Shown: positions 2,225-32,064 of the stretch, piece after piece
Numbering within the stretch: the stretch's first letter is position 1
Layout: the number at the start of each line of letters is the position of its first letter
Source of the DNA: Phocaeicola coprocola DSM 17136
Lineage (GTDB): Bacteria > Bacteroidota > Bacteroidia > Bacteroidales > Bacteroidaceae
Length of the DNA: 64,000 nucleotides
Direction: 5' to 3'
Assembly (NCBI RefSeq): GCF_000154845.1
Contig: NZ_DS981450.1
Location: 1 to 64,000, forward strand
The notes under the pieces: model-generated
The model's input: only the letters and a program-made list of their open reading frames with translations
Database searches by the model: none
What the model was told of the DNA's origin: nothing
Program-made: the position numbers and the translations under genes

Positions 2225-3190
2225 ATGAACTTAATTTTGGTTGCAGTGATTTCATTGGGGGCCATTGGCTTGATTGCCGCAGTTATTTTGTTTGTGGCTT
2301 CAAAGAAATTTGCTGTGTATGAAGATCCGCGAATTGCTCAGGTAGCCGAAGTGCTTCCACAAGCTAACTGCGGTGGATGTGGTTATCCGGGATGTTCTGG
2401 TTTTGCCGCTGCTTGCGTGAAGGCTGGTTCACTCGAAGGAAAACTGTGTCCGGTGGGCGGTCAGCCTACCATGGAAAAGGTTGCTGGTATTTTAGGACTG
2501 GAGGCTACAGCTTCAGAACCTAAAGTAGCGGTAGTGAGATGTAACGGTACATGTGCCAACCGTCCTAAACTTACTCAGTACGACGGTGTGCGTTCATGTG
2601 TAGTAGCTAATTCCACTTATGGAGGTGAAACCGGATGTACATTCGGCTGCTTGGGATGTGGCGACTGTGTGAGTGCTTGCCAGTTCGATGCCATTCACAT
2701 GAATCCGGAAACCGGATTACCCGAAGTGGATGAAAGTAAATGTACTGCTTGTGGTGCTTGTAGCAAAGCATGTCCGCGCAACATTATCGAAATCCGTCCG
2801 AAAGGAAAGAACAACCGTCGTGTATACGTACAGTGTGTCAATAAAGATAAAGGTGCTGTTGCACGTAAGGCTTGTACCGCTGCATGTATCGGCTGTGGCA
2901 AGTGTGTGAAGGTTTGTCCGTTCGAAGCTATTACACTCGAAAATAATCTGGCATACATCGATCCGGCTAAGTGTAAATCTTGCCGCAAGTGCGAAACTGA
3001 ATGTCCTCAGAATGCAATTGTTGCAGTAAATTTCCCTCCTCGCAAGGCTAAACCTGCTGACGCTGCTCCTGCAGCACAGGCTGCTTCTGCTGCACCAAAG
3101 GCTGCTCAGCCTGTAGCTGAACCTAAAAAGGAAACAGTGGAAGTTAAAGCTGCTGAAGCTCCGAAAGAAGCTCCTAAAACTGAGGCTTAA
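2225..3190 (+). CDS. rnfB: Electron transport complex subunit RnfB (polyferredoxin)
   Basis: RnfB feeds electrons from ferredoxin into the membrane Rnf complex, which couples ferredoxin:NAD+ oxidoreduction to Na+ or H+ pumping. An N-terminal membrane anchor (about residues 3-25) is followed by the RnfB-type Fe-S domain NCGGCGYPGCSGF (about 48-60). Several further 4Fe-4S motifs follow: CLGCGDCVSACQ, CTACGACSKACP, CIGCGKCVKVCP and CKSCRKCETECP. This is the long, multi-cluster form seen in Bacteroidetes and anaerobes. The last 45 or so residues are a low-complexity Ala/Pro/Lys/Glu tail of unknown role. It is the second gene of the operon, 35 bases ahead of rnfC. Confidence 0.96.
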   Translation: MNLILVAVISLGAIGLIAAVILFVASKKFAVYEDPRIAQVAEVLPQANCGGCGYPGCSGFAAACVKAGSLEGKLCPVGGQPTMEKVAGILGLEATASEPKVAVVRCNGTCANRPKLTQYDGVRSCVVANSTYGGETGCTFGCLGCGDCVSACQFDAIHMNPETGLPEVDESKCTACGACSKACPRNIIEIRPKGKNNRRVYVQCVNKDKGAVARKACTAACIGCGKCVKVCPFEAITLENNLAYIDPAKCKSCRKCETECPQNAIVAVNFPPRKAKPADAAPAAQAASAAPKAAQPVAEPKKETVEVKAAEAPKEAPKTEA

Positions 3191-3225
3191 TCAAAATTAG
3201 TAATTAAATTAAAAAGATATTTACA

Positions 3226-4563
3226 GTGAAGACATTTAGAATTGGTGGAGTTCATCCAGCAGAAAATAAATTGTCAGCAGGCAAAGCTATCGAAACGCTT
3301 GCTCTTCCTAAGCAGGCTGTTTTCCCTTTGTCACAGCATATCGGTGCTCCCGCTACTGCTATCGTAAAAAAAGGTGATGTAGTGAAGGTCGGAACCAAGA
3401 TTGCTGAAGCAGGAGGCTTTGTTTCTGCCGCTATCTTCTCTTCTGTTTCTGGTAAAGTAAACAAAGTGGATAGCGTTATCGACGCCAGTGGCTATCGTAA
3501 ACCGGCTATTTTTATTGATGTGGAAGGTGACGAATGGGAAGAAAGCATCGACCGCAGCAGCGAACTGGTAAAAGAATGTAACCTGACTCCTGAAGAAATT
3601 GTTGCTAAGATAAAAAATGCAGGTGTTGTTGGTATGGGTGGTGCTTGTTTCCCTACTCATGTAAAACTTACTCCTCCTCCGGGCTGTAAGGCAGACTGCG
3701 TAATTATCAATGCAGTAGAATGTGAACCATATCTGACAGCCGACCATCGTCTGATGCTGGAAAAGGCAGATGAAATATTGGTTGGCGTACAGATTCTGAT
3801 GAAAGCAGCTAAGGTTACCAAAGGATATATCGGCATTGAAAATAATAAGCCGGATGCCATCAAGCTGATGACAGAGAAGGCTGCTGCTTATCCTGGTATT
3901 GAGATTGTTCCTTTGAAAGTGAAATATCCGCAAGGAGGTGAAAAACAGTTGATTGATGCTGTTATTGGCCGTCAGGTTCCTGCTCCTCCCGCAATTCCTA
4001 TTAATGTAGGTGCAGTCGTTCAGAACGTAGGAACTGCTTATGCAGTATACGAGGCTGTACAGAAAAACAAGCCTTTGTTCGAACGTATCGTAACCGTTAC
4101 AGGAAAATCGTTGAAGAACCCTTCAAACTTCCTGACACGTATGGGTACTCCGATGAGCCAGCTTATTGAAGCTGCCGGCGGTCTGCCCGAAGACACAGGA
4201 AAGGTAATCGGCGGTGGTCCGATGATGGGTAAGGCACTGGCCAATACCGAAGTTCCTATCTGCAAAGGTAGTTCGGGCGTATTAATCATGAACGATAAGG
4301 AAGCATGTCGTGCAGAACCTCAGCCATGTATCCGTTGCGCTAAGTGCGTTAGTGCTTGTCCGATGGGACTGGAACCGTTCTTGCTGGCTACTTGCTCGGC
4401 TCATGGCGACTGGGAACGTGTAGAACATGAAATGATTATGTCATGTATCGAGTGCGGTTCTTGTCAGTTCACATGTCCTTCTCATCGTCCGATGCTGGAC
4501 TATATTCGTTTAGGTAAAGGTAAGGTGGGCGGAATTATCCGTGCACGTAACGCTAAAAAATAA
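3226..4563 (+). CDS. rnfC: Electron transport complex subunit RnfC
   Basis: RnfC is the peripheral NADH- and FMN-binding subunit of the Rnf complex. The protein (445 residues, GTG start at 3226) has the N-terminal RnfC barrel domain, then the Complex I 51-kDa-like fold with the glycine-rich GMGGACFPTHVKL, and an SLBB-type region. Two 4Fe-4S motifs near the C-terminus read CIRCAKCVSACPMG and CIECGSCQFTCPSH. It lacks the long Ala/Lys repeat tail of E. coli RsxC and is a compact form. It lies 13 bases ahead of rnfD. Subunit identity is certain from domains and order. Confidence 0.96.
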   Translation: MKTFRIGGVHPAENKLSAGKAIETLALPKQAVFPLSQHIGAPATAIVKKGDVVKVGTKIAEAGGFVSAAIFSSVSGKVNKVDSVIDASGYRKPAIFIDVEGDEWEESIDRSSELVKECNLTPEEIVAKIKNAGVVGMGGACFPTHVKLTPPPGCKADCVIINAVECEPYLTADHRLMLEKADEILVGVQILMKAAKVTKGYIGIENNKPDAIKLMTEKAAAYPGIEIVPLKVKYPQGGEKQLIDAVIGRQVPAPPAIPINVGAVVQNVGTAYAVYEAVQKNKPLFERIVTVTGKSLKNPSNFLTRMGTPMSQLIEAAGGLPEDTGKVIGGGPMMGKALANTEVPICKGSSGVLIMNDKEACRAEPQPCIRCAKCVSACPMGLEPFLLATCSAHGDWERVEHEMIMSCIECGSCQFTCPSHRPMLDYIRLGKGKVGGIIRARNAKK

Positions 4564-6845: not shown

Positions 6846-7445
6846 ATGGAATATATATTGATATTTATCACCGCTATCTTTGTGAACAACATTGTGTTGT
6901 CACAGTTTCTCGGTATCTGTCCGTTCTTGGGCGTTTCTAAGAAGGTAGAAACCGCTATGGGTATGGGAGCTGCTGTTGCCTTTGTGTTGACGCTGGCTAC
7001 CATTGTGACTTACGTTATCCAGAAGTTTGTGCTCGATGCTTTCGGACTGGGTTATTTGCAGACCATTGCATTTATCCTTGTCATTGCGGCATTGGTTCAG
7101 ATGGTGGAAATTATTTTGAAGAAAGTTTCTCCGGCTTTGTATCAGGCTCTGGGAGTATTCTTGCCGTTGATTACAACAAACTGCTGTATCTTGGGTGTGA
7201 CTATTCTGGTTATTCAGAAGAATTATGATTTGCTGACAGGTGTTGTCTATGCGTTCTCTACAGCTCTCGGTTTTGCTTTGGCATTGATCGTCTTTGCTGG
7301 AATTCGTGAACAACTCAGTCTGGTGAATATCCCTAAAGGTATGCGTGGCATGTCTATTGCATTGGTCACAGCTGGTCTGCTGGCAATGGCATTCATGGGC
7401 TTCTCTGGTGTAGATAAAGGCCTGGCAGTTTTATTTGGACTGTAA
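6846..7445 (+). CDS. rnfA: Electron transport complex subunit RnfA
   Basis: RnfA is the inverted-topology partner of RnfE in the membrane core of Rnf. It is about 199 residues with six hydrophobic segments. FVNNIVLSQFLGICPFLG at the N-terminus and LGVFLPLITTNCCILG in the middle carry the conserved Cys residues of the family. It starts 19 bases after rnfE and is the last gene of the B-C-D-G-E-A order common in Bacteroidetes. A strong terminator follows at 7481. Confidence 0.96.
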   Translation: MEYILIFITAIFVNNIVLSQFLGICPFLGVSKKVETAMGMGAAVAFVLTLATIVTYVIQKFVLDAFGLGYLQTIAFILVIAALVQMVEIILKKVSPALYQALGVFLPLITTNCCILGVTILVIQKNYDLLTGVVYAFSTALGFALALIVFAGIREQLSLVNIPKGMRGMSIALVTAGLLAMAFMGFSGVDKGLAVLFGL

Positions 7446-7480
7446 TCCGCACGAAACCTGATTGGTTAATATATTGAATG

Positions 7481-7528
7481 AGCAGAACTCTTTTCTGTCC
7501 GGAAGGATGAAAGAGTTCTGCTTTTTTT
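7481..7528 (+). terminator. Intrinsic terminator of the rnf operon
   Basis: Arms 7481-7493 and 7510-7522 form a perfect 13-bp stem. A T run directly follows on the plus strand, 36 bases after the rnfA stop. Confidence 0.9.
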
Positions 7529-7603
7529 ATGCCTTTGCATATTTATTTGATAAATTTGAGAGAGTTTTTTCTGACAGATGACGTGATATTCGATAATTAT
7601 TTC

Positions 7604-7611
7604 TACTTTTG
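7604..7611 (+). promoter_or_regulatory. Bacteroides -7 box (TACTTTTG) for galE
   Basis: TACTTTTG matches TAnnTTTG and ends 38 bases before the galE ATG. Confidence 0.55.
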
Positions 7612-7649
7612 TTGAAGAAAAAATTTGAAGGACGTAATTTTATAGCAAT

Positions 7650-8684
7650 ATGAAAGAAAGAATTCTGGTAACAGGTGGAACCGGTTATATTGGTTCTCAT
7701 ACAGTTGTAGAGCTTCAGAATAGTGGTTATGAGGTAATTATTGTAGATAATCTTTCGAACTCTCGTGCTGATGTAGTCGATAATATTGAAAAGATTACAG
7801 GTATTCGTCCTGAATTCGAACAGGTAGACTGCTTGGATTATGCAGGAATGGATGCTGTGTTTACCAAATATCCAGGTATTAAAGGAATTATCCATTTTGC
7901 AGCAAGCAAGGCTGTAGGTGAATCAGTGCAGAAACCTTTGTTGTATTATCGCAACAATCTGGTTTCATTGATTAACTTGCTGGAGCTGATGCCTAAGCAT
8001 AACGTTCCGGGCATTATCTTCTCATCTTCATGTACAGTATACGGTCAGCCCGACAAACTTCCTGTTACAGAAGAGGCTCCGATTAAGAAAGCAGAATCAC
8101 CTTATGGAAATACAAAACAGATAAACGAAGAAATTATTCGTGATACTGTGGCTTCCGGCTCTCCGATTCATGCTATTCTGTTGCGTTACTTCAATCCGAT
8201 AGGTGCTCATCCTACAGCACTCATCGGTGAATTGCCTAACGGTGTTCCGCAGAATCTTATTCCGTATCTGACTCAGACAGCTATCGGCATCCGTGAAAAA
8301 TTGAGTGTATTTGGTGATGATTATAATACACCTGATGGTTCATGTATCCGCGATTATATTTATGTTGTCGATTTGGCTAAGGCACATGTTATTGCCATGA
8401 ACCGTATCCTGGAAAACAAACAGAAAGACAAAGTTGAAGTATTCAATATTGGTACAGGTAGAGGCCTTTCTGTTCTGGAACTGATTCATGCTTTTGAATC
8501 GTCAACAGGAGTGAAGCTGAATTATCAGATTGCAGGTCGTCGTGCCGGAGATATCGAACAAGTGTGGGCCGATCCTTCTTACGCTAACAATGAATTGGGC
8601 TGGAAGGCTGAAACTTCTATCGAAGAAACACTGCGTTCAGCATGGAACTGGCAGCTGAAACTTCGTGAAAAAGGAGTTCAGTAA
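7650..8684 (+). CDS. galE: UDP-glucose 4-epimerase
   Basis: An extended short-chain dehydrogenase that interconverts UDP-glucose and UDP-galactose, linking the Leloir pathway with surface glycan precursor supply. The N-terminal NAD-binding motif is TGGTGYIGSH (residues 8-17). FSSSCTVYG precedes the catalytic Tyr152-x3-Lys156 pair (SPYGNTK). The GalE-specific RYFNPIGAHP segment follows. Length (344 residues) is normal. It has its own -7 box and sits alone between the rnf terminator and a possible structured RNA. Confidence 0.95.
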   Translation: MKERILVTGGTGYIGSHTVVELQNSGYEVIIVDNLSNSRADVVDNIEKITGIRPEFEQVDCLDYAGMDAVFTKYPGIKGIIHFAASKAVGESVQKPLLYYRNNLVSLINLLELMPKHNVPGIIFSSSCTVYGQPDKLPVTEEAPIKKAESPYGNTKQINEEIIRDTVASGSPIHAILLRYFNPIGAHPTALIGELPNGVPQNLIPYLTQTAIGIREKLSVFGDDYNTPDGSCIRDYIYVVDLAKAHVIAMNRILENKQKDKVEVFNIGTGRGLSVLELIHAFESSTGVKLNYQIAGRRAGDIEQVWADPSYANNELGWKAETSIEETLRSAWNWQLKLREKGVQ

Positions 8685-8753
8685 TCGGTTGAATGAAAAA
8701 TGATAAAAAACGTTAATATATAAAACCAAAACGTTTGAAGAAATGTTTTATTG

Positions 8754-22258: not shown

Positions 22259-24187
22259 TTACCACCACATCTGTTCCCCATTTTCGTAAGTGAAAGGACG
22301 TTCCTCTTTTCCTGAAGTGCGGTCTTTCAACAGGAGTAGAGCATGTGCAGGTACTCTGTCGTATGTCAGTGTATAGGTTTCAGGCTTGCGTTTACCCAGT
22401 GAAACCCATCCTCTGTCGTAATAAAACAGCTCATATTCGTGTGTAGGAAGTACGAAGTTGTCATCGTTCCACGGATAGAATACGATAGAGTCCAGTACTG
22501 CCGGTTTTTCCAGTTCATAGCCCAATATATATCCCGGAGTGATATCCGGTCTGGTCAAAGTATTACCGTCCACACTCAGTTCCACTTTCTTTACTGTACT
22601 TTGACCCGGTACGGCTTTCATTTTGCTTCCTTTGTTCCAGAATTCCACTTCCGCCATCGGAGTATCACATGTATCATTCGAACAATAACGGATATAGCGG
22701 TACATCTGTTTGCTTTCCACTTTCAGTACATTGCGGAATACCGGCATCTGTTCTACCCGTGCCAGAACTTCCGCATGAGTAAAATTCTTGTCATTACTAC
22801 CCTCAAACCGTGCCCCAGGCATTGGAGCCCATTCATTTGGCCACTTTCCCGTCAGCGGGTATTTACGGGTTAACACCACCCGTCCGGTCATACTTTTGTC
22901 AGGCGAAAGCGTGTGCTTCTTTCCGTTTAGCATCAGGAATGCATTATCCAGCGCTATCGGTTTTTCTTTTTCGAATCCGATTACCGCATATACAACCGAA
23001 TCTCCCAATGCTTCAAAGCGGCACATTCCGTTCTTAACTTCGGAAGCAGCGACTGGCGACCAGTCTGTTCCGGTAGCGAATGTACACAGATATGCCCGTT
23101 TTACTGCACGGTCCGTTTGCATTTCCACACTATTGTTCAGCCCGTAAGCGGCTGATACATCCATACGGAAAGGTGATGATACGTTCTTTCCCCACTCATC
23201 TTCTGCGACATCCTCCGTCGGCTGTCGCTCGAACGTGCTTCGCCATATCTTGGCACAACGTTTCTTGAAATCCGTCCGCATCGGAAAATCTTCCGGTATC
23301 GGATACTTCAATTCGAATTCCGTAGCATCGATGCGGTTATTAATCTTTGCCACTCTTTCGTCTTCGTATACCGAGTAAGTCCCTTTGTCGGTAATAAGTG
23401 CCGCCCAGGCATGACCGTTCCGGCTGTAATTCGCCCATCTTCCAACATTGTCAATGGCAGCCGGAATCCCCAGCGCACGCATTACTGCCCCTAACATCAC
23501 ACATCTCTGTACACACATTGCCTTACGCTGATGTTGCATTGCCACTACATCCAGTATATGAGGAAAGTGCGAACTGCTGCTCAATAACCGTTTCCATACC
23601 GTATCGTGTACGATTTCGAACGCCTCTTTTACAGTCCGTGCATCTTTTACTAATGTATGATATTCCTGATAAAGCGAGTCCCTCCAGCCATACGCCAACA
23701 ATTCCGACTCAAAACGATATGGCAACACATATCGGCAGAACAGTCCGAAATCTATTTCTTTTTGCCATGGCGCTTCCTGCCATGCCTGAAAAGCTCCATC
23801 TATGTTTTGAATGAGAAAATCGGCTTTCACGTAATTCAAGTCCCGCTTCAGTATTGGATGGTGATTCTTTGCCAGTTCGTCCCACCATGTATTCAGTGGT
23901 TCCATGGTCAGCAGCGAGTCAGCTTCCGCTACCCGGTTCCGGAAGGTATCAATCGCTTCACTCCATACTGTACCGTGCCCCCTCATGTTTTCTATCAGAA
24001 ACAGTGCCGCTTTCAGTTTCAGCGAGTCACTGTTATCCACATTCTGGTAATGGTCTATCACCTTCAGCAGCTCCAGTCTGTTTTCGCCAGCCTCTTCCAG
24101 CGCCAGCTCCAGATTTGTTTGCCTACCACAACTATACAGCACCAGTACCAGGAGTGCACTTAAACTAAAAAGATTCCACTTATTCAT
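22259..24187 (-). CDS. Transglutaminase-fold lipoprotein
   Basis: A 642-residue exported lipoprotein. The signal peptide ends in a lipobox, LYSC with Cys20. A transglutaminase-like core lies at about residues 200-290: the candidate catalytic Cys225 (KAMCVQRCVML, then ALGIPA at the family spacing), His259 (NGHAWAAL) and an acidic residue in YSVYEDERV. In bacteria this fold is often a peptidase or amidase, not a crosslinking enzyme. The C-terminal 300 residues are beta-rich, with a region that may be a carbohydrate- or cell-wall-binding sandwich (MAEVEFWNKGSK, GYILGYELEKPAVLDSIVF). It is the last gene of a four-gene operon, 13 bases after the Wzy-like gene. Its substrate is unknown. Confidence 0.82.
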   Translation of the reverse strand: MNKWNLFSLSALLVLVLYSCGRQTNLELALEEAGENRLELLKVIDHYQNVDNSDSLKLKAALFLIENMRGHGTVWSEAIDTFRNRVAEADSLLTMEPLNTWWDELAKNHHPILKRDLNYVKADFLIQNIDGAFQAWQEAPWQKEIDFGLFCRYVLPYRFESELLAYGWRDSLYQEYHTLVKDARTVKEAFEIVHDTVWKRLLSSSSHFPHILDVVAMQHQRKAMCVQRCVMLGAVMRALGIPAAIDNVGRWANYSRNGHAWAALITDKGTYSVYEDERVAKINNRIDATEFELKYPIPEDFPMRTDFKKRCAKIWRSTFERQPTEDVAEDEWGKNVSSPFRMDVSAAYGLNNSVEMQTDRAVKRAYLCTFATGTDWSPVAASEVKNGMCRFEALGDSVVYAVIGFEKEKPIALDNAFLMLNGKKHTLSPDKSMTGRVVLTRKYPLTGKWPNEWAPMPGARFEGSNDKNFTHAEVLARVEQMPVFRNVLKVESKQMYRYIRYCSNDTCDTPMAEVEFWNKGSKMKAVPGQSTVKKVELSVDGNTLTRPDITPGYILGYELEKPAVLDSIVFYPWNDDNFVLPTHEYELFYYDRGWVSLGKRKPETYTLTYDRVPAHALLLLKDRTSGKEERPFTYENGEQMWW

Positions 24188-24200
24188 ATCATATCATTTA

Positions 24201-26336
24201 TCAAAACATCAATTTACACCGATACCAGTTTTGAAACTTCGCCGCATAGTCCACCAGCATCAGCTGATGCTCGCCGAAGTTACGTTTTTCGTTTTCCATC
24301 GCTCGGTCACTGTTATTGAAAGCCCCTTTTATCCGCAGATTATATTTGCGGAAGCAGCTGTCCGCCTGTTCCATTTTGCCCTCTTCTCGATAGATTTGTC
24401 CTAAAAGCAGCCACGGCACAGCATATCCCGGCTGTGCATTTACTACTTGTTCCAGTACCTCTGTTGCCTCTTTTTTTCGGTTCAGATAATAAGCCAGTGC
24501 TCCGTATCGGGCATAGGCATGAGCCGTCCCTTCGTTTTTTGCCAGCCCTACCGTCAGTCCCTGTTCCACGGCACGGCGCAAGTCGGGGTCCGCAGTCAGC
24601 CACTCTTGTGTCTTTTCCGTACGCAGCCAGTCAGGACGCAACCATATAGCCCGGCGCAACTGTTCTGCCGCCTCATCCTTTCGTCCGATTTCATACAGTA
24701 ACACCGCGCTCTCGTAGGCAATGGATGCATTTCGAGGAAACTCCGATTCTAACTTTTGCTGTACCAGCATTGCTTCCTCGTACTTTCCGTCAAGCCGGTA
24801 CAGCCTGCCTCGCAGAAAATCGGCATACACATCCGTGTCGTTCATATCCAGTTCCAGTTGCTGCCGTATCTTTGCCCGATATCCCTCAGATAATGTGCTG
24901 TCGGGCGCGAACGCCGCAACTATCGCCTTGTTTATCCGGCAGGGAAAACGGTCGGAGGTCTGTTCCAATGCTTGTAATGCCTCTTTGTGATTTCCTTTTT
25001 TCCAAGCCTCGCAAGCCTGCTCCACCGCCTTGTTATCCATACGTAGACGTGTGTCCAACACCATAAACGCTATCCAGCAGCAACATCCCACGGCTAGCGG
25101 CATATACCGTATCCATGCAGTAAGCCTTACAGACTTTACAGTTTCGTTTCCGCTCTCTGCTTCCGTCTGCATCAAGGCAAGCAATATCAGGGTAAGTATC
25201 CATACGGATCCGTCGGCCAGCATGATGCTCATTGTCATTTCCTTTACTCCCACTGCCAGCAGACATGCAGCTATTGCCGTCATTGTCTTTTTCTTGCGAT
25301 ATTTTATCCAATATATTACTACCGCTGCACACAGACCGATATACAGCATCATCCCTGTCAATCCTTTCTCTACCAGCACCTGTACCACCACATTCGGTGC
25401 ATACGAGGTATAAGGTCGGGTAGAGTCTTCGTTCAGTACCCGATCCATCGCCAGCGTATAACTTCCGTTTCCTGTTCCCGTCCACAGATGTTCCTTTATC
25501 ACTGTCATTGCCTGCTCTGTGGCACGAAAACGGCTTTCCGTACTCTGTCGCTGCGATTCGGTACGCTTCATTGCCAGTGTAGTTCCTGTTTCGGTAGGAA
25601 ACAGCATCCATACCGTTCCCACAATGAATACGCACACTGCCACCAGTACCAACCTGTACCGCCATGTAGCCATAGATACGCACAATACTGTCACATACAC
25701 CGCCCACGACACAAAGGCTCCTCTCGAAAAAGACAGCAGCATTGTTACGGAAGCCAGCACCCAGCATATACCGAACACCTTCCGCCATCGGTCTATCCGG
25801 TATATCCCCATCGCAAGCATCCCCAATACGGGTAACCATACACTTGCCCATGCATTTGTGATGTAACCGAAAGGACGGAACAAGAAACGGAACGGATACA
25901 CATCGGTAAATCCCGCTCCATGTACCGCTCTCGTCCAGATTGAGAATGAAGCCAGCGTAATCGCCAGGGCGATGCCTGCTATTCCGGCGGACAGTTTCAG
26001 AAAGAGCGAAATACTTTCTGCCCGGCACGATGCCTCTCGTAGCAACAGATATGCGCAAAGTCCCGTCAGCGAGATACGTGCCGCATACATTCCTGTTATC
26101 GGATTTAGAATCCAAGTTGCCACGTCATACAGACAGACTGCCAGCACCGCCGCGTCCACCGCCGAAAACCGGAAGTGCAGCCACAATACAGATACAGTTA
26201 CACACAGCCCGAGCGGTAACAACATCCACGGGTCGTTTATGCGGAATAATTCCGCAGCCAGTGCCATGACAGCCATTACAGCCGCTATCTGCATGCCCCA
26301 TCGTGCCGAAATCCGTTGTCTATCTTCTGCCGACAT
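24201..26336 (-). CDS. O-antigen ligase/polymerase-like membrane protein with C-terminal TPR repeats
   Basis: A 711-residue protein with about eleven hydrophobic segments in the first 430 residues. The Wzy/WaaL-type signature LSFSRGAFVSWAV is present, with a large periplasmic loop after it (AMKRTESQRQSTESRFRATE). From about 440 to 690 the sequence is soluble and helical with tetratricopeptide-like repeats (GKYEEAMLVQQKLESEFPRN, GRKDEAAEQLRRAIWLRPDW, NRKKEATEVLEQVVNAQPGY). Family members join glycans or attach them to lipid or protein acceptors; PglL-type O-oligosaccharyltransferases also carry TPRs. A role in glycosylating a secreted peptide or protein is therefore possible. Its start overlaps the M50 gene by 17 bases. 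GC content in sampled lines is higher than in the flanking genes. Confidence 0.8.
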   Translation of the reverse strand: MSAEDRQRISARWGMQIAAVMAVMALAAELFRINDPWMLLPLGLCVTVSVLWLHFRFSAVDAAVLAVCLYDVATWILNPITGMYAARISLTGLCAYLLLREASCRAESISLFLKLSAGIAGIALAITLASFSIWTRAVHGAGFTDVYPFRFLFRPFGYITNAWASVWLPVLGMLAMGIYRIDRWRKVFGICWVLASVTMLLSFSRGAFVSWAVYVTVLCVSMATWRYRLVLVAVCVFIVGTVWMLFPTETGTTLAMKRTESQRQSTESRFRATEQAMTVIKEHLWTGTGNGSYTLAMDRVLNEDSTRPYTSYAPNVVVQVLVEKGLTGMMLYIGLCAAVVIYWIKYRKKKTMTAIAACLLAVGVKEMTMSIMLADGSVWILTLILLALMQTEAESGNETVKSVRLTAWIRYMPLAVGCCCWIAFMVLDTRLRMDNKAVEQACEAWKKGNHKEALQALEQTSDRFPCRINKAIVAAFAPDSTLSEGYRAKIRQQLELDMNDTDVYADFLRGRLYRLDGKYEEAMLVQQKLESEFPRNASIAYESAVLLYEIGRKDEAAEQLRRAIWLRPDWLRTEKTQEWLTADPDLRRAVEQGLTVGLAKNEGTAHAYARYGALAYYLNRKKEATEVLEQVVNAQPGYAVPWLLLGQIYREEGKMEQADSCFRKYNLRIKGAFNNSDRAMENEKRNFGEHQLMLVDYAAKFQNWYRCKLMF

Positions 26337-27513
26337 TCACTTTTAATTTGCGTATCACATTGTATAGCATGAATCCCACCAGTCCCAGCAACACAAGTTG
26401 CATGAAGATGTTGCGCAGCAAGGCGAACGAGGGCGCCATACCATTAGACAGATACAGCACCAACTGGTGTATCTCATCGGGAAACGAAGCCACAAAGTTT
26501 ACCATAAACTTAGGCAGGATATAGAAGAAGTAGTATCCCATAAACAGATTCACCACCACGGTATACACCAGCAGTCCGTAACGCCCCAGCCGGTTGGTTT
26601 GGAGTAGATAGGGCCTTTCACTCTCCGCACGTCCGCGTATCCGGCTGTACAGATAGTTCAGCAATTCCTTCGAACGGTTGCGTAGGTTGGGGATGCCCAG
26701 CACGTCGGACGCTATCCAGTAGCCGTCGAACTTGAAGAAAGGATTCAGAGTCATGATAAATCCGAGGTTGAGTGTCAGTATCATGTAGCGAAGTGTATCG
26801 CTTCCAGTAGCATAAAACAAGGCAAGCACTGCCAGCAGGATATACATCTGGAAGTATACTCCCGCCAGGTTTACGATGCAACGGTCTGTACGCCGCAAGC
26901 GCCACACCTCGGTCACGTCGGTGTACAGCACGGGGAAGTTAAGGTACAGTCCGAATCCGATTCCTCCGTGGCGGATGCCGAAGTGCTTGCACGCCGAAGC
27001 ATGTCCCAACTCATGGAAGAGCGATGATGCTACCATAAATATCAGCATTCCTATCACCATATAGGCATTGGCGGAACCGTTGAAGGTAAGTAGGTTGTCG
27101 GTGATACAGAAGAAACAGATGTCGGCTGCCAGTACCGCTATCATCAGCGGAAACATTACCGTTTTACGGAACAGAAAGCTACATGCATCCGAAAAGCGGT
27201 CTATCACCGAAGCGGAGAACAGCTCACGTTCGTAGAGGAATGTCCGTTTACGGGGTTTCGCATCGTCGGCAAACATCGGCTGGATCAGCCGTGTTATCAC
27301 GTCCTCCACCTGAGCGTACGAAAACATGCCCTTCTTTTTTTCCACAAAGGCAACTACCGCCTCCTCTTGTGTATTTTCTTGTTGCAGACAGCGGATTAGG
27401 TCTACCACTGGTGCGCCAGCCTCGTAGTGCCGTCCGTTATACACCAGCAAGAAGCGTTCCTTCACCGAGGCCGAAGAAAAATTTTGTATATGTATCTGCT
27501 TATATTTATTCAT
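26320..27513 (-). CDS. PqqD-like/M50 membrane metallopeptidase
   Basis: A 397-residue membrane protein. The first 85 residues resemble the PqqD-like, RiPP-recognition type segment (FLLVYNGRHYEAGAPVVDLIRCL and on). Membrane helices follow, with a zinc-site motif HELGH at 167-171 (SSLFHELGHASACKHFG) and the second M50 motif NPFFKFDGYW with Asp263. This plan matches YydH-like putative peptide zinc metallopeptidases linked to peptide maturation and export. It differs from site-2 proteases, which lack the PqqD-like part. Its start lies 1 base after the OMP stop and its end overlaps the Wzy-like gene. The peptide-processing role is inference; zinc peptidase motifs are seen directly. Confidence 0.82.
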   Translation of the reverse strand: MNKYKQIHIQNFSSASVKERFLLVYNGRHYEAGAPVVDLIRCLQQENTQEEAVVAFVEKKKGMFSYAQVEDVITRLIQPMFADDAKPRKRTFLYERELFSASVIDRFSDACSFLFRKTVMFPLMIAVLAADICFFCITDNLLTFNGSANAYMVIGMLIFMVASSLFHELGHASACKHFGIRHGGIGFGLYLNFPVLYTDVTEVWRLRRTDRCIVNLAGVYFQMYILLAVLALFYATGSDTLRYMILTLNLGFIMTLNPFFKFDGYWIASDVLGIPNLRNRSKELLNYLYSRIRGRAESERPYLLQTNRLGRYGLLVYTVVVNLFMGYYFFYILPKFMVNFVASFPDEIHQLVLYLSNGMAPSFALLRNIFMQLVLLGLVGFMLYNVIRKLKVNVGRR

Positions 27514-27514
27514 T

Positions 27515-29800
27515 CTATTCCACTTTCAATATTGCGCTATTGATATTATAATCAACATCATTTCTGTCACGGGAAGTTTTCTTTCCGAATTCGAATGTAT
27601 AGGCTACCTTTACGTATCCGCTTTGCTGATTATATCGGTAATATTGGTAACGGTCGAAACTATATACCTCCGAAGTCAGATAATTTCGTGTCTTGCTGCT
27701 GTCGATAAACGGATTATTCGTACCTCCTTCCAGTGACCAGTTGCCGTGATTCCAACTCAATGACAGCCCATAACAGCCGTCCTGTTCGCTGTAAATACCA
27801 CTCATACTCAACTCCTTGCTTTTCATTTGTCCGTAGATGTTCAGTGCAAAATCTTTCCAGAAGTAATTGATGTCCAGTTTACCGTACACACTGTTTTCAT
27901 GTTCTTTTTCTGTTCCTGTTATCAATCCACGCTGCCAGCGTCCGCTAATTTTCAAACGTAACGCATCAGTCACCTTGTACGAAAGATCCAATCCACCACG
28001 GAACGAATGATAATCTCCGTCACCTCTGAATGTTTCCACCACTTTATCCCCTTCAATAAAGAAAGCAGGCAGGGTGGTGTTTATCTCCGTATCATACATG
28101 AAGATTCCAAACAAGTTAAAGCGCCCGAACTGTACGCTATAGTTGGCTGATGCCGAATACATGGAAATCTTAGGCAAATATGGATTACCACGTTTCACAT
28201 GAAGCATATCCACTGTCTGCTCAGCCGTGTTGATGGTATTGATTTCGGGATAGGCATTACCTACTGCCATTCCTCCGCCAAGGAACTGCTTCTTGCTGAT
28301 GCTGTACATCAAGGCTACAGAACCTCGCGGGCTGATCCGGCTGATTTTGTCTTGACCATGCAGACGATACTGTAAGGAAGACATACCCGCTTGTGCATCT
28401 AACGTGAGTTTCTTGCTCAACTTGTGATTATAATTAAGAAACAATAAGGTTTCACCCGACCACAGATGTTGCCAGGAAGGAGAATCACCTTTATAGGTAG
28501 TCGAACTGATACGATGTATATGACGAACTTGAGCTGTCAGAGAGTTACCGTGTTTAAACTTGGCATAATATTTCACCGAAGGAGAAAGCGTGTACATTTC
28601 TTCCTGCACATTGCTATGTGAAATAAACTTGTTTTCCAGATACGAGCGGTCATAACTGTTATCGGTGTAATCTCCATTCAGCGTACACTGCAATTTCTGA
28701 TTCTTATTGAAACGGAATTCTCCATATAGGTTTAACGACGGTTTCAGCGAGCGCTGTTCCATCCTGCTATGGGAGGATGAGCTGGGGTATAGCTCCGAAT
28801 AGGTCAGGCTGCTTTCCTGTTCACTGCCCGGCTCTTCACTGTGTACCAACGCCATCTTGGCCATCAGTTTTCGTTTGTTGGTCTGGTTCAATATATTCAA
28901 CTGTGCATATTGTCTATTGTTCTTCTTGCGGTCTAAGTCCGTATTGCCTTGTTTTACAATACTATGTTCCGGAAAATAATAGGTTTCTGTATTTACGCTT
29001 CCCTCATTCTCATATTCTTGCATAGAATGTCCGCCAAACAACGTATATGAAGTATTACCACTATACAGCTTGACTCCCAAGTTATAATCTCCTTTCAGAT
29101 AACCGATTGTCTGGTCCGCATCTGCCGACACATAACCTCCGTTTATCCGCTTCTTGGTAATAAAATTTACGGAAGTTTTATCTCCGGCATATTCTCCGGT
29201 GGGCATATCCATGTATTCTATCCTTTCAATATCTTTCGGGCGTAGATTCTTTATTTCCCGATAGTCTGCTTCGCGTCCGTCTATATATAAAGTGGCGTTT
29301 CCGCCCATGGCTGATACTGTTCCTTTCCGGCGGTCGACATCCATGCCCGGAATCATCAGATTATAAAGCAAATCGTATCCTGTATGTGAGTGTTTCAACT
29401 GCTGCTTGTCGGGAATTATCAGTATTCGGTCGTCTTTACGGATGAATGAACTTCCTTTAATTTCTACATTGTTTAGCATTATATTGTTAGTCTGTAAGGT
29501 AATGACTGGTAATGTCCTGTCATTCTCACCATTGCTAATTACAGGAATTGTCTTGGTAAGATAGCCGATTGAACTGACAGACATCAAATATTCTCCTTTC
29601 CGTACTGTCATTTTATAGTTACCGGTACTATCGGTTGCTGTTCCTTGTACAAAAGTAGAATCCGGTTGTAATAATTGAATTGATGCATAAGGAACAGCAG
29701 TTCCAGTTTCTGATTTTACAATACCTTTCAGTATAGACTGTGCTTGAAGAGGAGTCGTTATCAAACTGCTGAAAAATAAAATTTTTATAATCAATTTCAT
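27515..29800 (-). CDS. Outer-membrane beta-barrel protein with carboxypeptidase-regulatory-like domain
   Basis: A 761-residue exported barrel protein. A signal peptide (residues 1-20, ending PLQAQ) precedes a CarboxypepD_reg-like domain (KGIVKSETGTAVPYASIQLL). A plug-like region follows with MGGNATLYIDGREADYREIK and RPKDIERIEYMDMPTGEYAG, then about 550 residues of alternating barrel sequence. It belongs to the TonB-receptor-like OMP family of Bacteroidetes, distinct from SusC. There is no SusD partner, and instead it heads an operon with an M50 peptidase, a Wzy-like protein and a transglutaminase-fold lipoprotein. It may import or export the cluster product. Lower GC than the two genes after it. 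Confidence 0.85.
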   Translation of the reverse strand: MKLIIKILFFSSLITTPLQAQSILKGIVKSETGTAVPYASIQLLQPDSTFVQGTATDSTGNYKMTVRKGEYLMSVSSIGYLTKTIPVISNGENDRTLPVITLQTNNIMLNNVEIKGSSFIRKDDRILIIPDKQQLKHSHTGYDLLYNLMIPGMDVDRRKGTVSAMGGNATLYIDGREADYREIKNLRPKDIERIEYMDMPTGEYAGDKTSVNFITKKRINGGYVSADADQTIGYLKGDYNLGVKLYSGNTSYTLFGGHSMQEYENEGSVNTETYYFPEHSIVKQGNTDLDRKKNNRQYAQLNILNQTNKRKLMAKMALVHSEEPGSEQESSLTYSELYPSSSSHSRMEQRSLKPSLNLYGEFRFNKNQKLQCTLNGDYTDNSYDRSYLENKFISHSNVQEEMYTLSPSVKYYAKFKHGNSLTAQVRHIHRISSTTYKGDSPSWQHLWSGETLLFLNYNHKLSKKLTLDAQAGMSSLQYRLHGQDKISRISPRGSVALMYSISKKQFLGGGMAVGNAYPEINTINTAEQTVDMLHVKRGNPYLPKISMYSASANYSVQFGRFNLFGIFMYDTEINTTLPAFFIEGDKVVETFRGDGDYHSFRGGLDLSYKVTDALRLKISGRWQRGLITGTEKEHENSVYGKLDINYFWKDFALNIYGQMKSKELSMSGIYSEQDGCYGLSLSWNHGNWSLEGGTNNPFIDSSKTRNYLTSEVYSFDRYQYYRYNQQSGYVKVAYTFEFGKKTSRDRNDVDYNINSAILKVE

Positions 29801-29865: not shown

Positions 29866-29940
29866 TTACCAATCATAACCATGACAACTCATACCTGGAC
29901 ATTTGTATTCATCACAATGCCCTAGAGTATCAATATCCAA
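29866..29940 (-). CDS. Possible Cys-rich micro-peptide upstream of the OMP-M50 operon
   Basis: A 24-codon frame reading to TAA, with C-terminal sequence HCDEYKCPGMSCHGYDW: three Cys spaced CX4CX4C, ending in an aromatic/acidic tail. It sits on the operon strand between a palindrome and a hairpin, where a precursor-peptide gene would be expected for a PqqD-like/M50 maturation system. Against it: the only usable start is TTG at 29940, an in-frame TAA lies four codons before that TTG, and no double-glycine leader is present. It could equally be a truncated or chance frame. Confidence 0.25.
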   Translation of the reverse strand: MDIDTLGHCDEYKCPGMSCHGYDW

Positions 29941-29943
29941 TAC

Positions 29944-29963
29944 TTCGGTAAATTTTTACCGAA
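29944..29963. repeat. Perfect 9-bp palindrome upstream of the micro-ORF
   Basis: TTCGGTAAA (29944-29952) and TTTACCGAA (29955-29963) are exact reverse complements separated by two bases. It could be an operator for a dimeric regulator or part of a transcript hairpin. No second copy was noticed in the window. Confidence 0.6.
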
Positions 29964-29970
29964 AGATTAA

Positions 29971-30051
29971 AAGTTAAACAACAGAACCGGCAAAAGCTGG
30001 TTCGGAAACACTAAAGAGGTCATTGAAATGTTGTCAAAAACGAATGGTTAA
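29971..30051 (+). pseudogene. Possible gene-end remnant beside the IS element
   Basis: A plus-strand frame without a start codon reads KLNNRTGKSWFGNTKEVIEM and then LSKTNG to a stop at 30049-30051. The composition is protein-like and it may be the C-terminal tail of a gene lost when the IS inserted or rearranged. Family unknown. The remainder of 30052-30114 shows nothing. Confidence 0.2.
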
Positions 30052-30114
30052 GCATGAAGAAATGTGCTGAAAAAAGAGAGCTAACCTGCTGATAATAAAG
30101 GAGGAAAGTATTGC

Positions 30115-31406
30115 ATAATTCGTTATTTCTTAGTAAATTAGAAGTCTCTGAACTCTTCTGATTATGACTAAAGAAACACTCCTTATGCAATACCAATCCG
30201 AGTGCCTGTCGGCTCTCAAATCAGTAGCGAATATACACAAACCTTTTGAAAAAGCATTCATGGACACCATGAAATTATTCATGGCCATCCCGGATCGTAT
30301 AAATTTCCTTCAATTGGGCAGATATGGCTGTTTCTCAGAACAGACTTATCGCAACCTTTTTGAGCATGAAACTTTCGACTGGTTTGCGTTCAACGGATCT
30401 ATCATCAGCAAGCATCTCACAGGCAAAAGAAAAGCCATTGCCATCGACCCTTCCTATATTCCCAAATCAGGCAAGAAGACACCTTGGATAGGTTACTTCT
30501 GGTCCGGTTGTGCAGGAGAGTACAAGCGTGGACTGGAAATCATGGGCATCGGTGTCATTGACATCGACAACCATGAATGCATGACTTTAGGTTCCATTCA
30601 GACACCGGATTGTAAGACCTTGGATAATATGGACAAGAACCTTGTTGACTGGTACAGCTGCTATCTTATCAGCAGAAAAGACAAGCTACAGAGCCTGTCC
30701 AGAACGGTGGTTGCAGACGCATTCTTTTCCAAGGAAACTTTCGTAACGCCTATGTGTGAGAACGGTTTCCATGTCATCAGCCGCTTTAGGAATGATGTTG
30801 TCCTGTACTATCCGACATTGGAAAAGAAAACAGGAAAACGTGGTCATCCCAAGTGGTTTGACGGCAGGATTGACTTTGCCAATCTGGATTTGACCCGGTG
30901 CAAGGAATACGAGGTGAACAAAGGAAAGCTATACGGATTGAGGGTTTATGCTAAAGCTTTCAAAAGGTATGTTTCCTTAGCCGTCTGGTATCCGATGGAC
31001 GGAAGAACAGACAAGTGGCAACTTTATTTCTCTACAGACGATTCCATGGATGGACGCGAGGTGCTGGATTATTACAGAACCAGGTTCCAGTTGGAATTTT
31101 GCTTTAGAGATGGCAAGCAGCATGCAGGAATCACCAGCTGCCAGTCTACCGACTTCAGGAAATTGGATTTTCACTTCAATGCATCGCTTGCTGCTGTCAA
31201 CTTGGCCAAAGCGGCATGTAAGAGGCTCGGAATAACCTATTCCATATCCTCCTGCAAGTCTTTCATACACAATGCTTATATGCTTGAACGATTTATTTGC
31301 GTGTTTGGGATTAGCCCAGACCCGCAAGTTATTGACAAACTTTTCAAAGAACTCATTTTATTTACTGCCAGAGCCGCTTAGGCTTGGCGAATTTTTAACG
31401 AACTAT
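30115..31406 (+). mobile_element. IS4-group insertion sequence
   Basis: The transposase gene is bracketed by short inverted repeats: ATAATTCGTTA at 30115-30125 and its near-complement TAACGAACTAT at 31396-31406 (10 of 11 bases match). The outer bases on each side do not agree, so no target-site duplication is visible. The right end lies inside a GT8 glycosyltransferase gene. The exact ends could differ by a few bases. Confidence 0.7.
30164..31381 (+). CDS. IS4-group DDE transposase
   Basis: A 405-residue transposase. First acidic motif AIDPSYIPKSGKKTPW, second VVADAFFSKETFV, and the IS4 signature Y-(2)-R-(3)-E-(6)-K exactly in YRTRFQLEFCFRDGK. The frame is intact from ATG to stop, so the element may still be active. 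It is transcribed opposite to both neighbouring gene groups. Confidence 0.92.
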   Translation: MTKETLLMQYQSECLSALKSVANIHKPFEKAFMDTMKLFMAIPDRINFLQLGRYGCFSEQTYRNLFEHETFDWFAFNGSIISKHLTGKRKAIAIDPSYIPKSGKKTPWIGYFWSGCAGEYKRGLEIMGIGVIDIDNHECMTLGSIQTPDCKTLDNMDKNLVDWYSCYLISRKDKLQSLSRTVVADAFFSKETFVTPMCENGFHVISRFRNDVVLYYPTLEKKTGKRGHPKWFDGRIDFANLDLTRCKEYEVNKGKLYGLRVYAKAFKRYVSLAVWYPMDGRTDKWQLYFSTDDSMDGREVLDYYRTRFQLEFCFRDGKQHAGITSCQSTDFRKLDFHFNASLAAVNLAKAACKRLGITYSISSCKSFIHNAYMLERFICVFGISPDPQVIDKLFKELILFTARAA

Positions 31407-31655
31407 TGTTACTTCATAGGCATTTTTAAATGATTCTCCTACGTTAAAAAAAGAAACACGACAATCTTTAGAATAAAAATCTTGTATTTTTAAAATTTGG
31501 CTTCTATATTCTGATGAAAGATTTTCTTCATTATATAAAATGAAGAAATCATAGTAGGTATTTGTATGCTTGTTTAAAAGCATTGAAGTAATACATACAC
31601 CAGCTGGCATTACCATATTTTTGTCAAAACAAAAAAATATAGGAATTTTATTCAT
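31407..31655 (-). pseudogene. Truncated GT8-family glycosyltransferase (N-terminal 82 or so residues)
   Basis: The fragment starts normally at 31655 with the GT8 opening (IPIFFCFDKNMVMPAGVCIT, then SMLLN). It continues through YYDFFILYNEENLSSEYRSQ to FKNAYEV, where it runs into the IS end and stops after four foreign codons. GT8 enzymes need a DxD motif and about 250-300 residues, both missing here. The rest of the gene is not found on the other side of the IS, so the insertion was accompanied by loss or rearrangement. A -7 box is kept upstream. Confidence 0.82.
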
Positions 31656-31734: not shown

Positions 31735-32064
31735 TAGTTTTTACTAGATAAACACAATTTTGTCCCTTTAAAATGTTTATATTGATATGTTTCATATGTA
31801 AACTTTTGCTTTTTATATATAAAATGTTCTTTTCTTAAAATACTGCTTGTCTTTTTGTTTTTTGTTAGGTAAGGGTGGTATATTTAAAAGATGTATATAC
31901 TTCGCAGATAGAAGAAAAATTAATTAGAAAACAAACTCTTCTTAGATGTTTATTTATAATTACTTGTTCTTTTTCTAAAAACATCCTCATCTTTTTTTAT
32001 TTTTCGTACAAATCCATAGAACCTATTGTACAAAAAAAGAAGTAAAATTTGTAGAGAAAAAAAT
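31735..32064. other. A/T-rich intergenic stretch
   Basis: About 330 bases without a supported gene between the GT8 promoter and the ABC-transporter terminator. It is strongly A/T-rich and shows no ORF, repeat or RNA that I can support. Confidence 0.6.

Follow-up and report, generated by a model that had tools for sequence, protein, structure and literature searches.

What might four contiguous genes, for an outer-membrane barrel, an intramembrane protease, a Wzy-like protein and a lipoprotein, accomplish together? The question is raised by a 64,000-nucleotide stretch of the genome of Phocaeicola coprocola DSM 17136 (contig NZ_DS981450.1, positions 1 to 64,000; hereafter, the window), and no such gene set was found described in the literature searched. 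Our analysis indicates that the four genes very probably form one half of a Bacteroidales RiPP cluster, the one concerned with processing and the envelope, and that an insertion sequence (IS) within the precursor gene has split it from the radical SAM half.

The four genes lie on the minus strand between positions 22,259 and 29,800. The OMP gene (27515..29800, 761 aa) comes first, followed by the gene for an M50 intramembrane metalloprotease with an N-terminal RRE (26320..27513, 397 aa), a Wzy_C/TPR membrane protein (24201..26336, 711 aa) and a transglutaminase/Cys-protease-fold lipoprotein (TGL; 22259..24187, 642 aa). The spacers between them measure 1, −17 and +13 bases. The tight packing noted in the sequence-only reading is thus present, and the grouping recurs in other genomes. 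The segment is just the downstream half of a conserved unit; the upstream part, set apart by the IS, comprises the peptide gene and that of a radical SAM enzyme. At the N-terminus of the OMP, a CarboxypepD_reg domain was identified by Pfam; no Pfam model matched the barrel region, which was assigned from its length and its relatives, and no SusD gene adjoins the OMP gene in the ORF list. The TGL matches Transglut_core slightly under the cut-off (3.1e-4), and its lipobox Cys20, Cys225 and His259 are invariant in 11 aligned homologues. Its C-terminal region is F5/8C- and CBM-like: it resembles CBM6-named PDB chains in a profile search (3e-25), and the homologue at locus L012 carries an F5_F8_type_C domain. 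A strict Bacteroides promoter pattern matched once between 21901 and 34000, at 31756 of the minus strand and ahead of a GT8 gene fragment, and not before the OMP gene.

Upstream of the OMP gene, the minus strand carries the Cys-rich core end of a RiPP precursor gene (29866..29937), the predicted C-terminus of which resembles that of the L012 precursor (..GHC..Y.C.GM.C..YDW). The gene is severed by the IS (29938..31408, plus strand; delimited by comparing ends and flanks over copies), which encodes a 405-aa DDE_Tnp_1 transposase (30164..31381, plus strand). The leader half of the precursor gene is found elsewhere in the genome, on contig C40, next to a radical SAM gene. Each half abuts an IS end, and the two have in common AATATC, a six-base target duplication. 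The sequence-only reading missed both this tail and the radical SAM enzyme on the other contig; with them, a vague envelope operon becomes a RiPP cluster. As the only precursor found in the genome is broken, the operon in the window is probably orphaned, and a full-length product is not expected.

On the far side of the IS, a gene for a GT8 glycosyltransferase is represented by a 5′ fragment (31409..31655, minus strand; weak GT8 match, 0.009). Its 3′ half is located on contig C60 (GT8, 5e-13), adjoining another IS copy, with the matching flank TTACTT/AAGTAA. The fragment is outside the system and adjoins it solely via IS recombination or misassembly. The chances appear evenly balanced that the GT8–IS–precursor tail junction is an assembly chimera formed at the repeated IS, in which case the C40 half would face the window half across one IS on the true chromosome. 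The IS has at least 40 matches in the genome, many at contig ends, and a matching duplication was found in just 5 of the 14 other copies with both flanks readable (L024, L026, L029, L033 and L034); for both split genes, moreover, the missing half turns up at another place, with flanks that match. However, the IS copies of C40 and the window differ at 2 of 1061 bases, and genuine recombination between IS copies would look identical.

The radical SAM enzyme has CteB (5wgg, 3e-17) as its top PDB match, and its highest-scoring curated families are RiPP maturases. Three such enzymes scored 97.6–116 of 340 bits against NF047865 and 87–96 of 425 bits against TIGR03974, missing both cut-offs; the general SPASM domain model TIGR04085 was the sole model over its cut-off among the matches listed. 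PADLOC matched the enzyme to two viperin models (best 9e-15), limited to its radical SAM part, and gave zero matches for the four window proteins; a defence system was thus rejected.

The conservation of the unit was assessed in 16 loci with a full-length M50 gene. A precursor and a radical SAM sequence are each present in 14, and a TGL gene likewise; the OMP gene lies beside the M50 gene in 14 and the Wzy gene in 15. The homologues are therefore not scattered singly, and the conserved short ORF suggested for a search upstream of the copies exists, in the form of the precursor gene. The earlier proposal of a set that makes, glycosylates or processes and then secretes a peptide is supported as regards processing and unsupported as regards glycosylation, and secretion is conjectural. 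The precursor and the radical SAM sequence are both missing from L010, on a contig that begins ~470 bases ahead of the OMP match, and from L081, with neither within the 20 kb read; at L086, the radical SAM piece is a C-terminal half without the CxxxCxxC half. The TGL gene varies in position and is missing from L010 and L082, while the OMP gene is missing from L085 and L088. L080, with two N runs of 2601 bases in its precursor and radical SAM genes, was counted from its readable parts, and L115 has one N run of 100 bases. Outside the 16 stand the distant M50 loci L090, L091, L093–L096 and L125–L131 and the plasmid L132. Among these, L125 and L126, relatives in other classes, have radical SAM, precursor and M50 only; from such gene content, the OMP, Wzy and TGL proteins may be accessories. 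A Muribaculaceae mobilizable plasmid carries all six genes (radical SAM, precursor, OMP, M50, Wzy and TGL). No peptidase-containing ABC transporter (PCAT) was noticed in the ORF lists as far as these were read, and the recombinant locus L021 carries one.

The leader motif LE.R.ETDP is invariant in 11 aligned precursors, and the cores are variable, with 2–7 Cys residues. No curated family matched the precursors (four scanned in NCBIfam, three in Pfam). In a search of 399 genomes of the family with a precursor profile, 13 genomes matched at E ≤ 1e-7, and 11 of these are among the 18 M50-positive genomes (Fisher p 2.7e-15, which is not a true probability because the genomes are related); the profile found no match in 7 of the 18. 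The M50 and precursor scans were taken as covering the same 399 genomes, as number and displayed handles agree. G514 and G494 (E 0.005 and 0.009) were read as chance and excluded from the 13, G434 and G476 were counted among the 18 with only distant M50 genes, and G005 (L016, at a contig edge) entered this count only, being outside both the 16 loci and the list of broken clusters. From these sequence patterns, a RiPP family is definable and would be searchable by its leader LExRxETDP, its radical SAM enzyme and its RRE-bearing M50 protease.

The M50 protease itself is distant from curated models. Its Pfam M50 matches are weak and below cut-off, and its HELGH was seen by eye; H-E-x-G-H is invariant in all 15 aligned M50 proteins. 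The NCBIfam model NF041824 (daptide_HExxH) matched it at 1.3e-28, yet with 100 of the 300 bits needed, far below the cut-off, and three homologues scored 90, 110 and 99 bits. The sequence-only reading had also called the N-terminus PqqD-like and suggested structural modelling, which we carried out. Residues 1–87 (27253..27513, minus strand), modelled alone (pLDDT 85.8), form three strands followed by three helices, and a second-look structure alignment placed RREs first (CteB, TigE, lasso B1, MccB and PqqD) at middling Z values of 5.8–6.7. In the model, then, the N-terminus has an RRE-like fold, in line with that call. Foldseek gave no significant E-value for it (0.13 or worse), with PH-domain rows interspersed, so RRE-like denotes a likeness of fold rather than proof of leader binding. 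The model of the whole protein is poor (pLDDT 58.3) and returned nothing in Foldseek at E 0.001; when the M50 profile was searched against PDB sequences, no match fell below 0.1.

The Wzy_C/TPR protein has a Wzy_C domain (3.6e-17), TPRs and 10 TM-like segments. Its Pfam score above cut-off, a weak NCBIfam match to the oligosaccharyltransferase TfpM (3.9e-8) and its alignment to WaaL 7TPG are what one would cite for a conventional operon for surface glycans or for O-glycosylation of proteins, with the Wzy-like protein as ligase and the M50 protein as envelope-stress regulator. We consider such an operon very improbable. In a 12-sequence profile alignment, A/S-H-N in 7TPG and 9RMK stands opposite A-P-N/S, found in all 14 aligned Wzy homologues; Pro thus replaces the proposed ligase His, and glycosylation was dropped as the leading idea for this reason. 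The H324A variant of PglS serves as an inactive control in the part of the source consulted (PMC12800693). The GT8 piece, which adjoins the set solely through an IS, and the recurring precursor and radical SAM sequence also speak against a glycan operon. Glycosylation through a D-T-L stretch seen by eye in the window peptide, which we take to resemble the Bacteroides O-glycosylation motif, was considered and dropped; the L012 core is without such a stretch.

For the RiPP cluster, the following course is proposed. A precursor of ~60–100 residues, in which a conserved leader (..LExRxETDP..) is joined to a variable core rich in Cys, would be translated and its core modified, probably at Cys, by the CteB-like radical SAM/SPASM enzyme. 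The M50 protease, with its own RRE, would then bind the leader and cut it in the inner membrane, freeing the peptide to the periplasm, by analogy with MpaP and EpeP; modification and leader cleavage are thus both inferred. In the periplasm, the TGL and the Wzy_C/TPR protein might trim or fold the peptide or pass it along, the least certain step, and the barrel could move it through the outer membrane or take it back up. It is conceivable, albeit improbable, that the His-less Wzy_C/TPR protein and the TGL form a new periplasmic peptide-ligation machine, joining the freed modified peptide to an envelope acceptor or passing it to the barrel, with the Wzy fold switched from glycan to peptide transfer. 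The second Wzy_C/TPR protein of the genome, located in an NVEALA peptide cluster, is also without the His; were peptide ligation true, this would point to a wider Bacteroidota peptide-handling family.

As to what the peptide does, a bacteriocin-like competition factor is a possibility, at odds below even. The Cys-rich variable cores and the presence of the cluster on a mobilizable plasmid are consistent with it, and so are clusters found broken elsewhere (genomes G002, G017, G661, G774, G527 and G730, with the radical SAM gene cut in G715), where repeated gene loss would reflect a production cost; gene loss is, however, compatible with many system types, and no immunity gene was recognized. 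Nearly as probable, in our judgement, is a signal (pheromone) made and trimmed by the cluster, returning via the barrel and read by TPR lipoproteins that are encoded upstream and combine a TM helix with a C-terminus resembling a DNA-binding domain. TPR regulators matching over more than 300 profile positions occur in 7 of the 16 loci, but the other nine lack one, or have a fragment only (L082), in the stretch read, and the regulator is cut short in L086. C40 has two copies, which agree at all of the first 120 residues but at just 17 of 39 C-terminal positions. The HTH-like nature of this C-terminus was judged by eye, whereas Pfam found TPR matches and no HTH in the four TPR proteins scanned. 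In L014, L092 and L108, where M50, Wzy and TGL are mostly gone, the OMP and the TPR protein persist, a point in favor of the signal; two other decayed loci, L015 and L107, have a broken OMP as well.

Although Bacteroidales are the prevailing gut bacteria in the human colon, few modified peptides are known from them. The envelope set of the RiPP cluster hints at export across both membranes with no peptidase-containing ABC transporter involved, and it brings forward a family with the Wzy fold, found next to peptides, in which the proposed ligase His is missing. The repeated breakage of the cluster by IS elements and deletions also offers a way to approach its cost or its social role. In the literature searched, no mention of NVEALA or LETDP was found.

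Among known systems, daptides resemble the window set in having an M50 protease with an N-terminal RRE (MpaP), and NF041824 is the best curated match. Daptide leaders with ELExMEAP, encoded beside RRE-fused M50 proteases, recall the LExRxETDP motif; beside daptides, the part of the source consulted names genes for an aminotransferase, an alcohol dehydrogenase and a methyltransferase as well as ABC transporters, and no radical SAM gene (PMC10036551). In contrast, the present cluster combines a radical SAM enzyme with Cys-rich cores, the NF041824 score is one third of the cut-off, and none of the 20 precursors with a readable C-terminus ends in Thr, a daptide trait (22 rows, with the cut L043 and L018 excluded). 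The ranthipeptide/SCIFF-type maturases CteB and PapB share the combination of a radical SAM/SPASM enzyme and a Cys-rich precursor, CteB being the top PDB match, but the scores fall far short of the curated cut-offs for these families and the OMP, TGL and Wzy/TPR envelope set distinguishes the present cluster. In the epipeptide protease EpeP/YydH and in LiaK, as far as the sources consulted go, an M50 protease is likewise considered responsible for the maturation and export of a RiPP; the NF058609 match, however, covers residues 120–282 of the window protease only, skips its RRE part and reaches 56 of 225 bits. Bacteroidales radical SAM RiPP clusters mined with BAGEL4 share the radical SAM gene and the OMP and TPR genes and have precursors with GG-like ends; seven of the nine described have a PCAT, and M50, Wzy and transglutaminase genes are not described in the consulted part of that source (PMC10352776). 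The NVEALA cluster of the same genome has a signal peptidase S26 protein in place of the M50 protease, and no radical SAM gene was noticed in its 9-kb ORF list, but it shares with the RiPP cluster a His-less Wzy_C/TPR protein with small exported peptides alongside (NVEALA, two Pfam matches).

The four genes placed by the sequence-only reading at 22259-29800 are present there as ORFs, all on the minus strand. They encode an outer-membrane barrel protein (OMP, 27515-29800), an intramembrane metalloprotease (M50, 26320-27513), a Wzy_C/TPR membrane protein (Wzy, 24201-26336) and a transglutaminase-fold lipoprotein (TGL, 22259-24187). In this order, successive genes are 1, -17 and 13 bases apart. 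The motifs named in that reading broadly match the family searches, although the M50 and transglutaminase Pfam matches fall under their cut-offs. The most telling match of M50 is the daptide intramembrane metalloprotease (NCBIfam NF041824, 1.3e-28, residues 28-323), at 100 bits for a cut-off of 300; the second NCBIfam match is the epipeptide protease NF058609. The TGL carries a lipobox, LYSC (by eye), and is likely an active Cys hydrolase or transferase, because Cys225 and His259 are invariant in 11 aligned sequences.

Upstream of the OMP gene, 72 bases in frame (29866-29937, minus strand) read as the tail of a precursor peptide, ending ..GHC..Y.C.GM.C..YDW and cut by an insertion sequence (IS, 29938-31408). 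In L012, a relative with a 57% identical OMP, a 67-residue peptide has the same ending and is preceded by a radical SAM gene. This radical SAM protein has one match in the window's own genome, 60% identical, on contig C40, where downstream of the gene a peptide leader (..SLNETFSEFDLQKLEDRLETDPLAVGGLLDLSADGLSDI) runs up to an IS copy. A precursor profile search of the genome matched the C40 half alone; the window half was recognised by reading. The hexamer AATATC flanks the IS both in the window, on the core side, and on C40, on the leader side, as expected if a single IS inserted into the precursor gene. As judged by eye, target duplications of 6-8 bases are found in five of the 14 other IS copies with both flanks readable (L024, L026, L029, L033, L034), and a matching duplication is absent in the remaining nine and in the window copy. 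The IS has at least 40 matches in this genome (40 scored among 100 candidates), many at contig ends.

Across the window IS lies a piece of a GT8 glycosyltransferase gene that a further copy of the IS has divided: the first part occupies 31409-31655 of the window (contig C67) and the second half (Pfam GT8, 5e-13) is located on contig C60 (L115:3250-4038), adjoining that copy with a matching 6-base flank. Thus, the neighbourhood of the operon that the window shows (GT8, ABC transporter) differs from the ancestral one. It was produced either by IS-IS recombination or by misassembly.

M50 was found, own genome counted, in 8 of 60 relatives, 6 of 393 genomes of the order, 18 of 399 of the family and, at E 1e-15, 21 of 395 of the phylum. 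Four loci are located on named contigs of Bacteroides reticulotermitis, Phocaeicola faecicola, a Muribaculaceae MAG and Bacteroidaceae IMSAGC_004 (a fragment). Full-length close matches from the relatives, the named contigs and the order and family searches gave 16 distinct loci, the window's included, whose gene content was determined by profile scans over all frames. Wzy adjoins M50 in 15 of them (exception L082), and OMP adjoins M50 in 14 (exceptions L085 and L088). A radical SAM sequence and a precursor are each present in 14 (missing from L010 and L081), counting the window and P. faecicola (G024), where both are on another contig. TGL is likewise found in 14 loci (missing from L010 and L082). 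It directly follows Wzy, in the same orientation, in the window, L018, L081, L086 and L087, and L083 has a fragment at this position; the other loci have it 5' of the radical SAM gene or on the opposite strand. Some genes are fragmented: radical SAM in L018, L080 (N runs) and L088, TGL in L018, and Wzy in L087 and L088. The two N runs of L080 (12904-15504 and 16092-18692, each 2601 bases) lie within the precursor and radical SAM gene of genome G709. In L086 the radical SAM gene is reduced to its C-terminal half, with no CxxxCxxC found in the stretch ahead of it.

L125 and L126, from other classes, have just the radical SAM gene, a precursor (..IQELEQRLETKPW..) and M50, so that these three look like a core trio, with OMP, Wzy and TGL as a Bacteroidales add-on. 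Distant M50 proteins are encoded with a 366-aa protein, an OMP and a radical SAM gene in L093 (9377-15338), and beside ketosynthase-like genes (by eye), a 383-aa and a 707-aa protein in L095 (5555-13625). The 366-aa and 383-aa proteins have zero Pfam or NCBIfam family matches.

Eight leader residues (N12, L23, E24, R26, E28, T29, D30 and P31, L012 numbering) are invariant in 11 aligned precursors. The cores vary in length and contain 2-7 Cys (20 readable rows); the L083 leader also contains a Cys. Searches of Pfam with three precursors and of NCBIfam with four yielded no genuine family, the exception being a single chance match at 0.17. In L085 (10457-11003), two tandem precursors have similar leaders and dissimilar cores; its genome, G616, has a second cluster, L084. 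Among the 399 family genomes, the precursor profile matched 15 genomes at E 0.01, of which 13 remain at E 1e-7. Eleven of these 13 genomes belong to the 18 with M50, and the other two (G527 and G730) are decayed loci. The Fisher p of this co-occurrence is 2.7e-15, weakened by the common ancestry of the genomes. Seven M50 genomes gave no precursor profile match (G002, G035, G661, G774, G434, G458 and G476).

Residues 1-87 of M50 were modelled alone, with three homologues (pLDDT 85.8), giving strands at 8-11, 20-25 and 28-33, followed by three helices. Foldseek returned nothing under 0.001; its list is headed by two rows of cyanobactin heterocyclases (4v1v, TruD), followed by PH-domain entries interspersed with TbiB1, and PqqD at rank 15. 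In a second look at this list by VIA-align, CteB is on top (Z 6.7, 72 aligned, rmsd 3.2), with TigE (6.6), lasso B1 proteins (6.6), MccB (5.8) and PqqD 5sxy (Z 5.8, 78 aligned, rmsd 3.0). All rows down to rank 11 are, as far as is known, RiPP proteins bearing a RiPP recognition element (RRE). A lone Z of such size could be chance, and it is the consistency of the rows that argues for a predicted RRE-like N-terminus.

CteB is also the best PDB match of the radical SAM protein, in which CxxxCxxC and seven more Cys are invariant in five sequences (one partial). Its top-scoring curated families are RiPP maturases, far under cut-off; among the matches listed, the SPASM domain model alone exceeds its own cut-off.

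In Wzy, alignment places A-P-N/S where WaaL (7TPG) and an OTase (9RMK) have A/S-H-N, and A-P-N/S occupies this ligase-His site in 14/14 homologues. This His is described as the proposed catalytic residue, with H324A PglS as inactive control (PMC12800693). The sole other Wzy_C protein found in the own genome carries TPRs and is missing the His too (F-N, by eye). It is encoded on contig C4, in a cluster (L114:129-7369) that also comprises an S26 signal peptidase, a lipoprotein-like ORF and two NVEALA peptides (Pfam 2e-18 and 1e-21). This suggests that such Wzy_C/TPR proteins and exported peptides are more widely linked. TPR lipoproteins spanning more than 300 profile positions are located upstream in 7/16 loci; a TM segment and an HTH-like C-terminus were seen by eye, and Pfam gives TPRs only. 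In L043, two of them (3000-4559 and 7166-8698) flank a further OMP; their first 120 residues are identical and the C-terminal third is much less alike, a pattern resembling a duplication after which the output domain diverged.

Radical SAM, precursor, OMP, M50, TGL and Wzy genes are also located together on a MOBV plasmid of 18.8 kb from Muribaculaceae bacterium MF13079. The plasmid Wzy gene is interrupted, probably by an IS, since the intervening ORFs match DUF4372 and, weakly, DDE_Tnp_1. Apart from the window, broken clusters are found in G002, G017, G661, G774, G527 and G730, and a cut radical SAM gene in G715. In G661 a fusion joins the M50 N-terminus to the final TGL residues, and in G527 the M50 N-terminal and TGL terminal pieces lie side by side, which shows that TGL was formerly downstream of M50 in both. 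A near-identical deletion occurs in two genera (L092:9989-10303 and L107:8848-9223), where the M50 start (profile positions 1-73 or 3-93) runs straight into the last 29-44 TGL positions. L014, L092 and L108 keep OMP and the TPR protein and have lost Wzy and all or part of M50; L015 and L107 have a broken OMP as well. L021 (662-7493; Bacteroidaceae IMSAGC_004, same contig as G774) is a recombinant locus in which radical SAM and OMP genes and a C39-peptidase ABC transporter, accompanied by a small ORF, precede a C-terminal piece of a cluster-type M50 and an N-terminal piece of Wzy.

The gene set probably forms a RiPP cluster, with an architecture that is apparently unreported. Among the papers listed by full-text searches (for example 12 of 1,267, 10 of 456 and 15 of 30 matches), no description of the gene set was recognisable by title or abstract start, subscription journals being mostly outside the scope. 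Bacteroidales RiPP clusters have been described, with peptidase-containing ABC transporters in 7/9 (PMC10352776); that paper contains no O-antigen, transglutaminase or TonB term. M50 proteases named in RiPP maturation include EpeP, TglG and TmoG (PMC10885120). Daptide site-2 proteases also bear an RRE, joined to their N-terminus, and the daptide leader motif reads ELExMEAP (PMC10036551).
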